Assembly: GCA_027486795.1 (NCBI GenBank)
Contig: JAIXOI010000037.1
Location: forward strand, 82,489-146,488
Length of the DNA stretch: 64,000 nt
Direction of reading: 5' to 3'
Source: Sphingobacteriales bacterium
Lineage (GTDB): Bacteria > Bacteroidota > Bacteroidia > Chitinophagales > CAIOSU01
A program made the position numbers and the translations under genes. Under the pieces are notes generated by a model. It was not told where the DNA came from. It made no database searches and saw only the letters and a list, made by a program, of their open reading frames with translations. Positions 50,400-64,000 of this stretch are shown here, piece by piece (position 1 is the first letter of the stretch; each line of letters starts with the position of its first letter).

Positions 50400-50438
50400 G
50401 TATTGTATCCAATGGTTGGGGCAAAGGTGCAGATTATT

Positions 50439-50530
50439 AATTCAAAATTTAAAATTCAAAATTAGCTACAGCGCATTTCAACTTACGGCCCAAACCAATT
50501 TTTCAATTTTAAATTTTCAATTTTAAATTG
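50439..50530. repeat. Inverted pair of AT-rich heptamer arrays without a gene
   Basis: AAATTNA-type heptamers run forward at 50439-50464 and inverted at 50497-50530, with 32 bases between. The geometry equals that of the arrays flanking the four-helix-bundle gene at 63.46-63.92 kb, only with no gene in the middle. It fills most of the gap between the Rossmann reductase and alcohol dehydrogenase genes and ends one base before the latter's stop codon. Confidence 0.7.
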
Positions 50531-50531
50531 C

Positions 50532-51572
50532 TCATACCGTTGCCATATCAATTACAAACCTATAGCGCACATCGCTTTTTAATACACGCTCGTAGGCTTC
50601 GTTAATGTAGTTTATTGGTATGATTTCGATGTCGGAAACAATGCCATGCTCGGCGCAATAGTCCAGCATTTCCTGGGTTTCTTTAATGCCCCCAATCAGT
50701 GAGCCAACTAACCGGCGACGTTTCATTACCAAAGCGCCACTAGGTATTGGTGATGGTACTGGTGGTATACCCAACAATATCATGGTACCATCCACTTTTA
50801 GCAATTGCAAGTAGCTGGCTATGTCGTGCTGTGCACTTACGGTATCGATAATAAAATCGAAGCTATTCTTGAGTTTTGCAAACTGCTCGGCATCCTTGGT
50901 TACTGCAAAATGATGTGCCCCGAGGTCTTTGGCGTCCTGCTCTTTGCTTGGCGAAGTACTTAGAATAGTTACTTCGGCACCTAACGATACGCCTAACTTA
51001 ACTGCCATGTGGCCCAAACCGCCCAAACCAACAACGGCCAGTTTATGGCCCTTGCCTACTTTCCACTCCCGTAACGGCGACCAAGTGGTAATGCCCGCAC
51101 AAAGCAATGGCGCTACCCCTGCCAAATCAAGCTTAGCCGATACTTTGAGGGTGTATTGCTCATCGACGGTAATGAAATTGCTGTAGCCTCCATAGGTGGG
51201 GTTGCCTTGCTTGTCTTTACTATTGTAAGTGCCCACCATACCTACTTCGCAGTATTGCTCCAAACCTTTTTGACAACTTGGGCACGTACGGCAACTATCC
51301 ACAAAACATCCAACTCCTGCCAAATCGCCTACGGCAAACTTGGTTACTTCGCTACCTACTTTAGTTATCTGGCCTACAATTTCATGGCCTGGCACCATCG
51401 GGTAAATACCTTTGCCCCACTCGTCGCGTACTTGGTGTATATCGCTATGGCATACGCCACAATACTTTATGTCAATCAAAACTTCCTTTGGTCCTGGCTC
51501 ACGGCGCTCAAAACTAAATGGTTGTAAAGGCACACTCGGTGCTGGGGCTGCAAATCCTTTAGCTGATAGCAT
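50532..51572 (-). CDS. Zinc-dependent NAD(P)-alcohol dehydrogenase
   Basis: The 346-residue medium-chain dehydrogenase has YCGVCHSDIHQVRDEWG with the catalytic zinc Cys and neighbours, GHEIVGQITKVG, the structural zinc site GCFVDSCRTCPSCQKGLEQYC (four Cys), and a cofactor fold GLGGLGHMAVKLGVSLGAEV. It is of the YahK/cinnamyl-alcohol type, which prefers NADPH and reduces aldehydes. The ATG at 51572 (MLSAKGFAAP) is preferred; the open frame of 23 more codons upstream is not conserved in type. Confidence 0.9.
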   Translation of the reverse strand: MLSAKGFAAPAPSVPLQPFSFERREPGPKEVLIDIKYCGVCHSDIHQVRDEWGKGIYPMVPGHEIVGQITKVGSEVTKFAVGDLAGVGCFVDSCRTCPSCQKGLEQYCEVGMVGTYNSKDKQGNPTYGGYSNFITVDEQYTLKVSAKLDLAGVAPLLCAGITTWSPLREWKVGKGHKLAVVGLGGLGHMAVKLGVSLGAEVTILSTSPSKEQDAKDLGAHHFAVTKDAEQFAKLKNSFDFIIDTVSAQHDIASYLQLLKVDGTMILLGIPPVPSPIPSGALVMKRRRLVGSLIGGIKETQEMLDYCAEHGIVSDIEIIPINYINEAYERVLKSDVRYRFVIDMATV

Positions 51573-54308: not shown

Positions 54309-54335
54309 CAAAGATAAGGTGCTTTTTAGTATCAA
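54309..54335 (-). promoter_or_regulatory. Candidate promoter of asd
   Basis: On the minus strand TATCTTTG (54316-54309) is a full -7 match and TTG (54335-54333) lies 16 bases before it. The -33 TTG is inside a GTATCAA heptamer unit, so the repeat array may have supplied the promoter element. The spacer is shorter than usual. Confidence 0.5.
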
Positions 54336-54400
54336 GATATGAGTATCAAGTATCAAGACCAAAAAGGTACGATTTACGAGGTACGATTTACGATTGAATA
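54329..54400. repeat. Mixed heptamer array upstream of asd
   Basis: Units GTATCAA, GATATGA, GTATCAA, GTATCAA follow in 7-base steps. After an 8-10 base break come GGTACGA, TTTACGA, GGTACGA, TTTACGA, TTGAATA, also in 7-base steps. Two different heptamer words thus lie side by side. Confidence 0.65.
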
Positions 54401-54437
54401 AAAAGTGAATGTTTAAAATGAGCTTTTTAAGCAGAAC

Positions 54438-54491
54438 ATACTTGATACTTGATACTTGATACTTGATACTTGATACTTGATACTTGATACT
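54438..54491. repeat. Perfect GATACTT heptamer tandem repeat
   Basis: The 7-base unit ATACTTG is repeated without error for about 7.7 copies. It ends 4 bases before the stop codon of the CPBP gene. The unit is the reverse complement of the GTATCAA units 40-100 bases away, so the whole gap can fold into a long imperfect hairpin. Confidence 0.9.
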
Positions 54492-54494
54492 ATC

Positions 54495-63023: not shown

Positions 63024-63044
63024 TGGATGCGAATCCGTTGTACT

Positions 63045-63076
63045 CAATTTTGAATTTTGAATCTTAAATTTTCAAT
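63045..63076. repeat. AT-rich heptamer array before paaB
   Basis: On the minus strand the 7-base units AAATTTA, AGATTCA, AAATTCA, AAATTGA follow one another. It ends 8 bases before the paaB ATG. Orientation is the same as that of the array at 63890-63922. Confidence 0.6.
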
Positions 63077-63084
63077 CCCTCGCC

Positions 63085-63462
63085 ATGAGCGACTCAAATA
63101 AATCTCTCGACCCCCGTATAGCCCGTCTGGAGCTTCCTCAAGGCGAAAGCATTGTAAAACCCGATGAATACTGGGGCACGTTTGAAGTGTTTTTGCAAGA
63201 AAAACGGGGTAAGTTTCACCAGCATGTAGGCAGTGTGCACGCACCAGAACAGGAAATGGCTCTAGTGTTTGCCAAAGAGCAATATGCCCGCCGCGGCAAA
63301 TGCGTAAATATGTGGGTTGTAAAAACCACCGACATTTTCGCATTCCAATTGGCCGACGAAGATATGTTTGCCACCACCCCAGATAAGCAGCACCGCGAAG
63401 CAGGAATGTATAAAGTGAGAGATAGGATACAGGCGTATCAGGAGCGGGAGAAAAAGATTTAA
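63085..63462 (+). CDS. paaB: Phenylacetyl-CoA epoxidase subunit PaaB
   Basis: The 125-residue protein is the small subunit that bridges PaaAC heterodimers. It shows WGTFEVFLQEKRGKFHQHVGSVHAPEQEMALVFAKEQYARRG and VNMWVVKTTDIFAF, the core of the family. It is slightly longer than the usual 95-100 residues, with extra residues at both ends. The stop codon TAA is part of an AT-rich heptamer array, and the next paa gene is displaced by an inserted gene. Confidence 0.92.
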   Translation: MSDSNKSLDPRIARLELPQGESIVKPDEYWGTFEVFLQEKRGKFHQHVGSVHAPEQEMALVFAKEQYARRGKCVNMWVVKTTDIFAFQLADEDMFATTPDKQHREAGMYKVRDRIQAYQEREKKI

Positions 63463-63488
63463 AATTGAAAATTCAAAATTTAAAATTG
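63461..63488. repeat. Left arm of the four-helix-bundle cassette
   Basis: Forward units AAATTGA, AAATTCA, AAATTTA, AAATTGG follow in 7-base steps. The array shares its first bases with the paaB stop codon. It is inverted relative to the array at 63890-63922. Confidence 0.7.
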
Positions 63489-63495
63489 GTTTTGA

Positions 63496-63891
63496 GTGGC
63501 GAAGATTGAGCAATTTGAAGACTTAAAAATATGGAAAGATGCTGCAGCAATTAGCGTCTCCATTATCAAGATGTCAATGAACGGTCCGCTAAGTAAAGAT
63601 TTCGGCATTAGAGATCAAATCAGACGTATCGCTCTTTCTATATCTAGTAATATTGCCGAAGGTTTTGAGTATAACAATAACAAAGAGTTTATCCGCTTTC
63701 TAAGGTATTCCAAAGGTTCCGCAGGAGAGCTTCGCAGTCAACTGTATATTGCCTTTTCTGCAGAAGTGATTGAGAAGGAAACATATGATGGTTTCAGAAA
63801 GGAATTGTTAGAAATGTCCCGTCAAATTAGCGGTTTCATAAAGTACTTGCAAGAGCATAAGTACACGACCTCCAAAACACGGGAAAAATAA
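63496..63891 (+). CDS. Four-helix bundle protein (23S rRNA intervening-sequence type)
   Basis: The 131-residue protein matches the S23/IVS four-helix-bundle family: FEDLKIWKDAAAISVSIIK, DFGIRDQIRRIALSISSNIAEGFE with the diagnostic S-x-x-NIAEG, and FLRYSKGSAGELRSQLYIA. Members were first found inside 23S rRNA intervening sequences and are related to the Avd accessory protein of diversity-generating retroelements; their function is unknown. The start is GTG at 63496. The gene splits paaB from paaC and is framed by inverted heptamer arrays that touch its stop codon and the paaB stop, so it looks like a late insertion. Confidence 0.88.
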   Translation: MAKIEQFEDLKIWKDAAAISVSIIKMSMNGPLSKDFGIRDQIRRIALSISSNIAEGFEYNNNKEFIRFLRYSKGSAGELRSQLYIAFSAEVIEKETYDGFRKELLEMSRQISGFIKYLQEHKYTTSKTREK

Positions 63892-63922
63892 TTTTAAATT
63901 TTGAATTTTAAATTTTCAATTT
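63890..63922. repeat. Right arm of the four-helix-bundle cassette
   Basis: On the minus strand units AAATTGA, AAATTTA, AAATTCA, AAATTTA, AAATTAT follow in 7-base steps, one unit more than the left arm. It overlaps the stop codon of the four-helix-bundle gene and ends one base before the paaC ATG. Confidence 0.7.
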
Positions 63923-63923
63923 A

Positions 63924-64000
63924 ATGGATAGCCTAAAAAATTTCCTCTACACCATAGCCGACGACAACCTAATCCTTGGCCACCGAAACAGTGAATGGAC
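63924..64000 (+). CDS. paaC: Phenylacetyl-CoA epoxidase subunit PaaC, 3' partial
   Basis: The first 25 codons from the ATG at 63924 read MDSLKNFLYTIADDNLILGH and then RNSEW, the typical PaaC start (ADD-x-LILG-x-R-x-SEW). PaaC is the structural partner of PaaA. The gene runs out of the window. Its upstream DNA is an AT-rich heptamer array. Confidence 0.85.
   Translation, partial: MDSLKNFLYTIADDNLILGHRNSEW

Follow-up and report, generated by a model that had tools for sequence, protein, structure and literature searches.

An IVP gene framed by inverted heptamer arrays between paaB and paaC, a candidate case of a widespread element placed at stop codons

The window, by which we mean the whole 64,000-nucleotide stretch of the Sphingobacteriales bacterium genome that was analyzed, ends within a paa operon in which an IVP (S23p) gene lies between paaB and paaC (Table 1). 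Open reading frame coordinates and Pfam matches agree on this position, which an earlier note on this DNA had also given. The predicted protein matches PF05635 with 111 bits (cut-off 33.8) and TIGR02436 with 108 bits (cut-off 24), and the paaC counterpart in a sister species is assigned to PaaA_PaaC (PF05138) by Pfam. Below, G000 is the genome of the window, G001 to G004 are four sister species of the same genus (the paaC counterpart being that of G003), and other G and L numbers denote further genomes and loci. The IVP gene is flanked by two inverted arms of 37 nt each that are 89% complementary, and the predicted fold of the element pairs the arms with each other. The left arm overlaps the TAA stop codon of paaB (63460-63462) and the right arm covers the stop codon of the IVP gene, both as the earlier note had read them.

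Table 1. Positions of genes and arrays in the window
Feature	Position	Strand	Remarks
Gene-less inverted AAATTNA pair (site D)	50433..50532		arms 50439-50461 / 50500-50522
Gene-less inverted TATCAAG pair (site C)	54327..54492		GTACGA array in loop
Gene-less TNAATTT array 5' of paaB	63041..63077	+	G002 and G003 have other letters and another number of units
paaB (PF06243), upstream host gene	63085..63462	+	ORF and Pfam match
Left arm, AAATTNA heptamer array	63457..63493	+	strict units 63462-63482; sense strand purine-rich
IVP (S23p) / four-helix-bundle gene, PF05635 and TIGR02436	63496..63891	+	131 aa, GTG start
Right arm, inverted array	63884..63920	+	strict TNAATTT units 63895-63922; spans IVP stop 63889-63891
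paaC start	63924..64000	+	ORF leaves window; called by comparison with relatives

An AlphaFold model of the window protein (pLDDT 92.3) has the four-helix-bundle fold and matches the PDB entries of two relatives, 2gsc (TMq 0.76-0.80) and 2rld (BT_0352 of Bacteroides thetaiotaomicron; 0.72-0.75), each of which contains five chains. A pentameric state of PF05635 relatives is reportedly described by Lin et al. Weaker structural matches were obtained to Avd (4dwl; TM 0.61-0.71 at 11-14% identity) and to chains of ribonucleoproteins of diversity-generating retroelements (DGRs; 8ub7), and the relation to Avd given in the earlier note is borne out as a structural likeness.

Three consecutive AAATTNA units were found 21 + 18 times in the 3.9-Mb genome, compared with 1 + 0 times for the reversed pattern (overlapping registers of one array are counted in these numbers); the arrays in the window are not due to chance. 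Because such arrays also occur elsewhere in the genome, the arms in the window are not private to the IVP gene. The genome encodes five IVP genes, and the other four are also enclosed by inverted arrays, here built from the words ATGTACCA, AATTTGGA, a AGATAACA-like word and GTACGAN. The neighbors of these four are two CoA-transferase genes, an unassigned gene and an enoyl-CoA hydratase gene, an aminotransferase gene, and the genes for malate synthase and isocitrate lyase.

We scored arms by comparing the left flank of each gene with the reverse complement of its right flank and accepted scores of at least 26. From 135 IVP rows in the genome and its relatives, 94 were read (the remaining 41 being mostly weak or partial) and 89 had enough flanking sequence; the window copy, whose flank is too short, stands outside these 89 and outside the 130 armed copies described below. 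Arms were present in 65 of the 89 copies, compared with 4.2% of 7832 mismatched flank pairs and 6.2% of 226 mismatched pairs from the same genome, and 24 copies scored under the threshold, so that flanking arrays accompany most homologues and a minority lack a detectable pair. Among named loci fetched with the protein group of the window (the best 80 of 553 were kept and 75 were usable), 65 of 75 had arms, with a null of 9.8%. Outside Bacteroidota and Ignavibacteria, arms were found in 22 of 26 named copies from phyla that include Verrucomicrobia, Planctomycetota, Acidobacteria, Armatimonadetes, Patescibacteria and Proteobacteria, as labelled in the sequence records. No arms were detected at 23 control PaaB flanks, from which the PaaB genes adjoining elements in G000, G002, G003 and G014 were left out; only this observed count is used, as conserved PaaB flanks match one another and make a mismatched null unusable. 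Among 78 control ORFs of 95-170 aa from G000, four had arms, and three of these are accounted for by such elements, being an IVP gene, a GxxExxY gene and the neighboring paaB.

The analyses of arm sequence used the 130 armed copies (127 once near-duplicates are removed), and the trees had 102, 124 and 71 rows. The best period was 7 in 73 of 116 arms and 8 in 33, identity at lag 7 was 0.548 compared with 0.32 after shuffling, and 83 of 130 arms had the length of four or five seven-nucleotide units. The word differs between copies, yet both arms of one copy have it in common. Read in the sense direction, 102 of 127 left arms are rich in purines, and the left-arm word loosely fits AARTYNN; RRRTY fits 128 of 271 units, whereas column-permuted controls reach 18.7% on average and 27% at most, and on the opposite strand it fits 32 of 268. 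On the protein tree, copies with the same arm period (7 or 8) group together, with 15 changes compared with 27.4 after shuffling and none of 500 shuffles as low. The array need not be AAATTNA, and each lineage has its own word. The earlier note had suggested that the element uses or targets AAATTNA arrays; such arrays, already in place, are ruled out as the specific target, since the words differ in IVP copies from other lineages.

The apparent target is instead the stop codon that ends a co-directional gene. An upstream ORF of at least 100 aa was present for 127 of the 130 armed copies and was co-directional with the IVP gene in 125 of the 127, while for a random gene the expectation is about 71% (spacers of G000: 136 and 122 tandem, 53 divergent). 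In 91 of these 125 copies the left arm lies no more than 12 nt from the upstream stop codon (45 of 63 from the relatives and 46 of 62 from the named loci), and in 47 it overlaps the stop. Where the downstream gene is convergent, the stop side falls within -16 to +9 in 18 of 19 cases and the other side scatters from -87 to 982. We scanned twelve upstream genes for domains. Pfam gave no hit for the one upstream of L003, and the 11 others each reach to no more than two positions from the end of their last domain model. Truncation of the host gene is ruled out as the cause of the stop-codon placement by these complete domains.

Arrays of this kind also occur without a gene. In 464 kb of G000 we detected 85 arrays, compared with one in a Markov control, and among them 21 gene-less inverted pairs. 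Sixteen of 20 such pairs lie no more than 13 nt from a stop codon facing them (the smaller of the two distances where genes converge). Of the 21, 17 have a purine-rich left arm, and one (L166:5613-5746) is contained in a called ORF. When IVP arms were compared with the gene-less arrays of G000, 14 of 15 arms from the five genomes of the genus matched (nine of ten with orthologues merged) and five of 47 arms from other genera did so; the p value of 1.3e-9 treats orthologues as independent, the 15 arms having come from 19 IVP rows that represent about ten distinct elements. Of the 70 intergenic arrays, 48 match a genus IVP arm, three of these being the IVP elements' own arms, 27 match an arm from another genus, and 22 match none of the queried genus arms. 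None of the queried arms provides an IVP partner for the AAGACAC and TATCAAG families. Within the window, a GTACGATTTACGAG array lies in the loop of the TATCAAG hairpin, so that two families are nested at this site, which holds about seven ACTTGAT units in G000 and two in G003.

Comparison of the same sites between sister species revealed different fillings. Between paaB and paaC, G002 has an orthologous element with an IVP protein 90% identical to that of the window, and G003 has a different IVP (39% identical) with GTTGCGG arms. G001 has an inverted repeat of CGTCATTGCGAGGA...CAATCCC that forms a hairpin (L231; G001:C4:115800-116200) and is perhaps a REP of the CGTC type, judging from the portion of PMC3733652 available. 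In G014 a gene-less array occupies the paaB-paaC spacer and an IVP gene lies between paaA and paaB, and G016 has another gene order. The earlier note had proposed a search for empty sites, and by eye we found paaC directly behind paaB in 15 of the 20 relatives whose PaaB match was good; the insertion is not common to all relatives.

Four further sites were compared. Site A, a CoA-transferase spacer, has three different fillings in four species, and by eye the upstream stop codon lies in or at the array in every species compared; a block duplication in G003 (L223) makes the left array of the IVP element there about double the length of that in G002 (L224). Site B holds an IVP gene in G000 and other hairpins in G002 and G003. 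Site C has TATCAAG arrays in G000 and G003 and AAGACAC in G004. Site D has AAATTNA arrays in G000, G002 and G004, where the arms are nearly unchanged and the loop has diverged, a GTTGCGG hairpin in G003 and other arrays in G001. The number of units in an array varies between sister species. A search for target-site duplications met other hairpins at the compared sites, without a close, clean pair of filled and empty alleles.

A second gene family is enclosed in a similar way. One inverted pair in G000 encloses a gene for a GxxExxY protein (TIGR04256, 113.5 bits; PDDEXK_3), which lies between inverted TGTCTGAATCAGAATT arrays at L171:1537-2183. A gene-less pair with a word related to TGTCTGAATCAGAATT was seen at L164:1398-1514. 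We read 29 of 54 GxxExxY rows from the genome and its relatives; arms scored at least 26 in 16 of the 27 usable copies, with a null of 6.8%. The arm vocabulary is unlike that of IVP genes, being of the CACAAAG type or GTCTGAATCAGAATT, and placement is looser, with the upstream gene co-directional in 16 of the 27, opposite in four and not found in seven. In G024 (C13:799366-799590), one 100-aa frame matches positions 1-41 of PF05635 and positions 77-116 of PF13366; going by these two partial matches, it is possibly a chimera of an IVP and a GxxExxY gene.

The earlier note had described the gene and its arms as a compact mobile unit. The recurrence of the unit and the empty alleles agree with this description; the divergence of the copies within genomes and their operon residence speak against free mobility. 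In 66 within-genome pairs from the 94 copies read of 135 rows, no near-identical IVP copies were found and the maximum identity was 70.9%. Among the copies read, gene-bearing elements thus show no visible multiplication within a genome. Lineages also tend to keep their operon. Many copies of the protein group of the window reside in suf operons, at four spacers (A-B, B-C, C-D and S-E), although the query alignment included one suf-operon IVP (L045), so that the proportion of suf loci in the named set does not estimate a natural frequency. The suf genes were called as SufA-, B-, C- and D-type by Pfam at three loci, by homology clusters at the others, and by eye for S-E. The suf copies group together on the tree (7 changes compared with 22.3), and supported sisters occupy different suf spacers, namely L245 and L252 (98/98) and the Flavobacterium C-D group and L266/L300 (98/84). 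This clustering together with the spacer changes argues for what would be long residence with local moves rather than free transposition.

IVP genes recur between genes for partner proteins (paaA/B/C, sufA/B/C/D, CoA-transferase subunits, malate synthase and isocitrate lyase). The five paa copies fall into one supported clade of 12 with seven others, L059 being on a long branch. Strict loyalty of the window lineage to paa does not hold, as L236 (64%), the closest named relative of the window protein, has a 288-aa gene on one side, read as a carbon-nitrogen hydrolase, and a 446-aa oxidoreductase gene on the other (both functions assigned by eye).

Candidate partner enzymes do not follow the IVP genes. 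IVP genes were found in 37 of 40 relatives, RVT_1 in 11 of 40 and Y1_Tnp in 29 of 40; G000 has one RVT_1 match, and all four sister species have none. No RVT_1 or Y1_Tnp match was found in G009 and G034, although both genomes carry armed IVP copies. By these distributions, a reverse transcriptase or Y1 transposase of these two families is ruled out as a required partner.

Several known systems resemble the element in part. The intervening sequences (IVSs) of 23S rRNA in Coxiella and Leptospira likewise consist of a PF05635 ORF alone within terminal inverted repeats; the Coxiella IVS has a 28-bp stem, and no recombinase is mentioned in the part of PMC4990558 available. In CPR bacteria, ORF-less rRNA insertions occur at the same sites as ORF-bearing ones (a statement about insertions in general in the available text of PMC11270868, which in 2024 described PF05635 proteins as functionally uncharacterised). 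The window element differs in lying behind the stop codon of a protein gene rather than in an rRNA helix, and in having tandem arrays of a lineage-specific heptamer as arms. REP/RAYT systems (REPtrons) also have a master gene framed by repeats with dispersed gene-less relatives in one genome (PMC3733652, same portion). Unlike in REPtrons, the ORF here is an IVP, there is no Y1 transposase in the element and none was found in G009 and G034, and the arms are tandem heptamer arrays with many word families per genome. The resemblance of PF05635 to Avd has been published (PMC10053308, in the excerpt available); Avd has the same fold, but no reverse transcriptase was found among the neighbors in the last 4 kb of the window, and RVT_1 was found in 11 of 40 relatives.

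Heptamer repeats such as TAACTGA in Beggiatoaceae, Cyanobacteria and some Bacteroidetes share the period of 7 and the spacer location, and some overlap an upstream stop codon, but they are mostly direct arrays before start codons (available text of PMC4679880). The terms "helix bundle" and "S23" do not occur in the main text of that article, nor was a link to IVP genes found there. An IVP gene between cmr3 and cmr2 has been published (PMC3936711, from the part available). Neither arrays flanking IVP genes nor their placement at stop codons was found described in the open-access text available to us.

The observations to be explained are the architecture, its period, the loose AARTYNN word, the placement at stop codons, the similarly placed gene-less pairs, the sharing of words within the genus and the different word families at the same site. 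We favor, at slightly less than even confidence, a widespread element in which an IVP gene lies in inverted, lineage-specific arrays of about seven nucleotides that start at a co-directional stop codon; its protein is predicted to bind the word and would likely maintain or spread the arrays, and the gene-less pairs would probably be satellites. By analogy with REPtrons, IVP genes and gene-less pairs could be the masters and satellites of one system, with a protein of the 23S IVS type at its core and no recombinase. The IVP likely recognizes its word and may help keep or spread the arrays. An IVP oligomer would touch four or five words of one arm, and ring contact of this kind is suggested by the five chains in the crystal entries of two relatives. 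The arms would work mainly as DNA, as sites resembling terminal inverted repeats or as single-strand hairpins, and new copies would be inserted into weakly protected DNA directly after a stop codon, the driving activity being supplied by the host and not encoded in the element. Against this model, operon loyalty fits a resident function at least as well, and the word consensus is loose.

In a rival reading, the arrays would form an intercistronic mRNA hairpin, and an IVP oligomer would bind its own and the gene-less hairpins and set the processing or stability of neighboring messages, often those of subunits of one complex. On balance we consider this unlikely, but it stays strong because of the co-directional rule (125 of 127 compared with about 71% expected) and operon loyalty, including the recurrent positions in paa, suf, CoA-transferase and malate synthase/isocitrate lyase operons and the lineages that keep their operon and change the spacer. 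The presence of the Avd fold in DGR ribonucleoproteins (8ub7) and the cutting of 23S IVS hairpins by RNase III (PMC4990558, same part) also fit it. However, pairing of the IVP arms as sense RNA gave no excess of G.U over A.C mispairs (108 compared with 139, and 32 compared with 57 by locus), so that selection for an RNA stem was not found by this sign and the IVP arms tilt the other way. The 16 gene-less hairpins with one facing gene have eight G.U-type and seven A.C-type mispairs, too few to tell, and folding of the whole element as RNA was not significant (z -1.50). We prefer the DNA reading because this sign of RNA-stem selection is lacking and the folding is not significant. In addition, a whole word family swapped at the same site between sister species would rewire a regulon at once.

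Filled and empty alleles, inverted ends and dispersed gene-less copies are what would be expected of an ordinary transposon-like cassette, with the arms serving as terminal inverted repeats for a transposase or reverse transcriptase that is encoded elsewhere and cuts at them, and the IVP as a passenger or helper. We regard this as improbable, since for the two enzyme families tested the distribution does not follow that of IVP genes (37 of 40 relatives, compared with 11 for RVT_1 and 29 for Y1_Tnp) and G009 and G034 are armed with neither; arm sequence also varies by copy, and near-identical gene-bearing copies were not found. It is more improbable still that the arrays are intrinsic terminators or AT-rich repeats that grow by slippage in spacers where IVP genes lie by accident. 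Heptamer arrays are indeed known as intergenic repeats in several phyla (PMC4679880, as above) and their unit number varies between sister species, but arms at IVP genes are far more frequent than at mismatched flanks and other ORFs, the arrays lie inside operons, and the two arms of each copy have a common word.

A more novel reading would be a categorically new element class of recombinase-free "stop-codon cassettes", a proposal that we hold to be rather doubtful as a whole. In it, an Avd-like ring protein would read a private heptamer alphabet, one heptamer per subunit, and each lineage would write its own inverted runs behind stop codons genome-wide and move between the spacers of a single operon. 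The 23S IVS would be the same element landed in rRNA, and GxxExxY nuclease genes with CACAAAG-type arms would be a parallel system.

The architecture is common to several phyla and gives the IVP family a candidate ligand, its own heptamer word, and a candidate target, the co-directional stop codon. Sister species carry hairpins of unrelated words at a shared site. The element offers a possible reason for the presence of IVP genes inside operons, and it links two puzzles, the IVP family and the abundant heptamer arrays of intergenic DNA.
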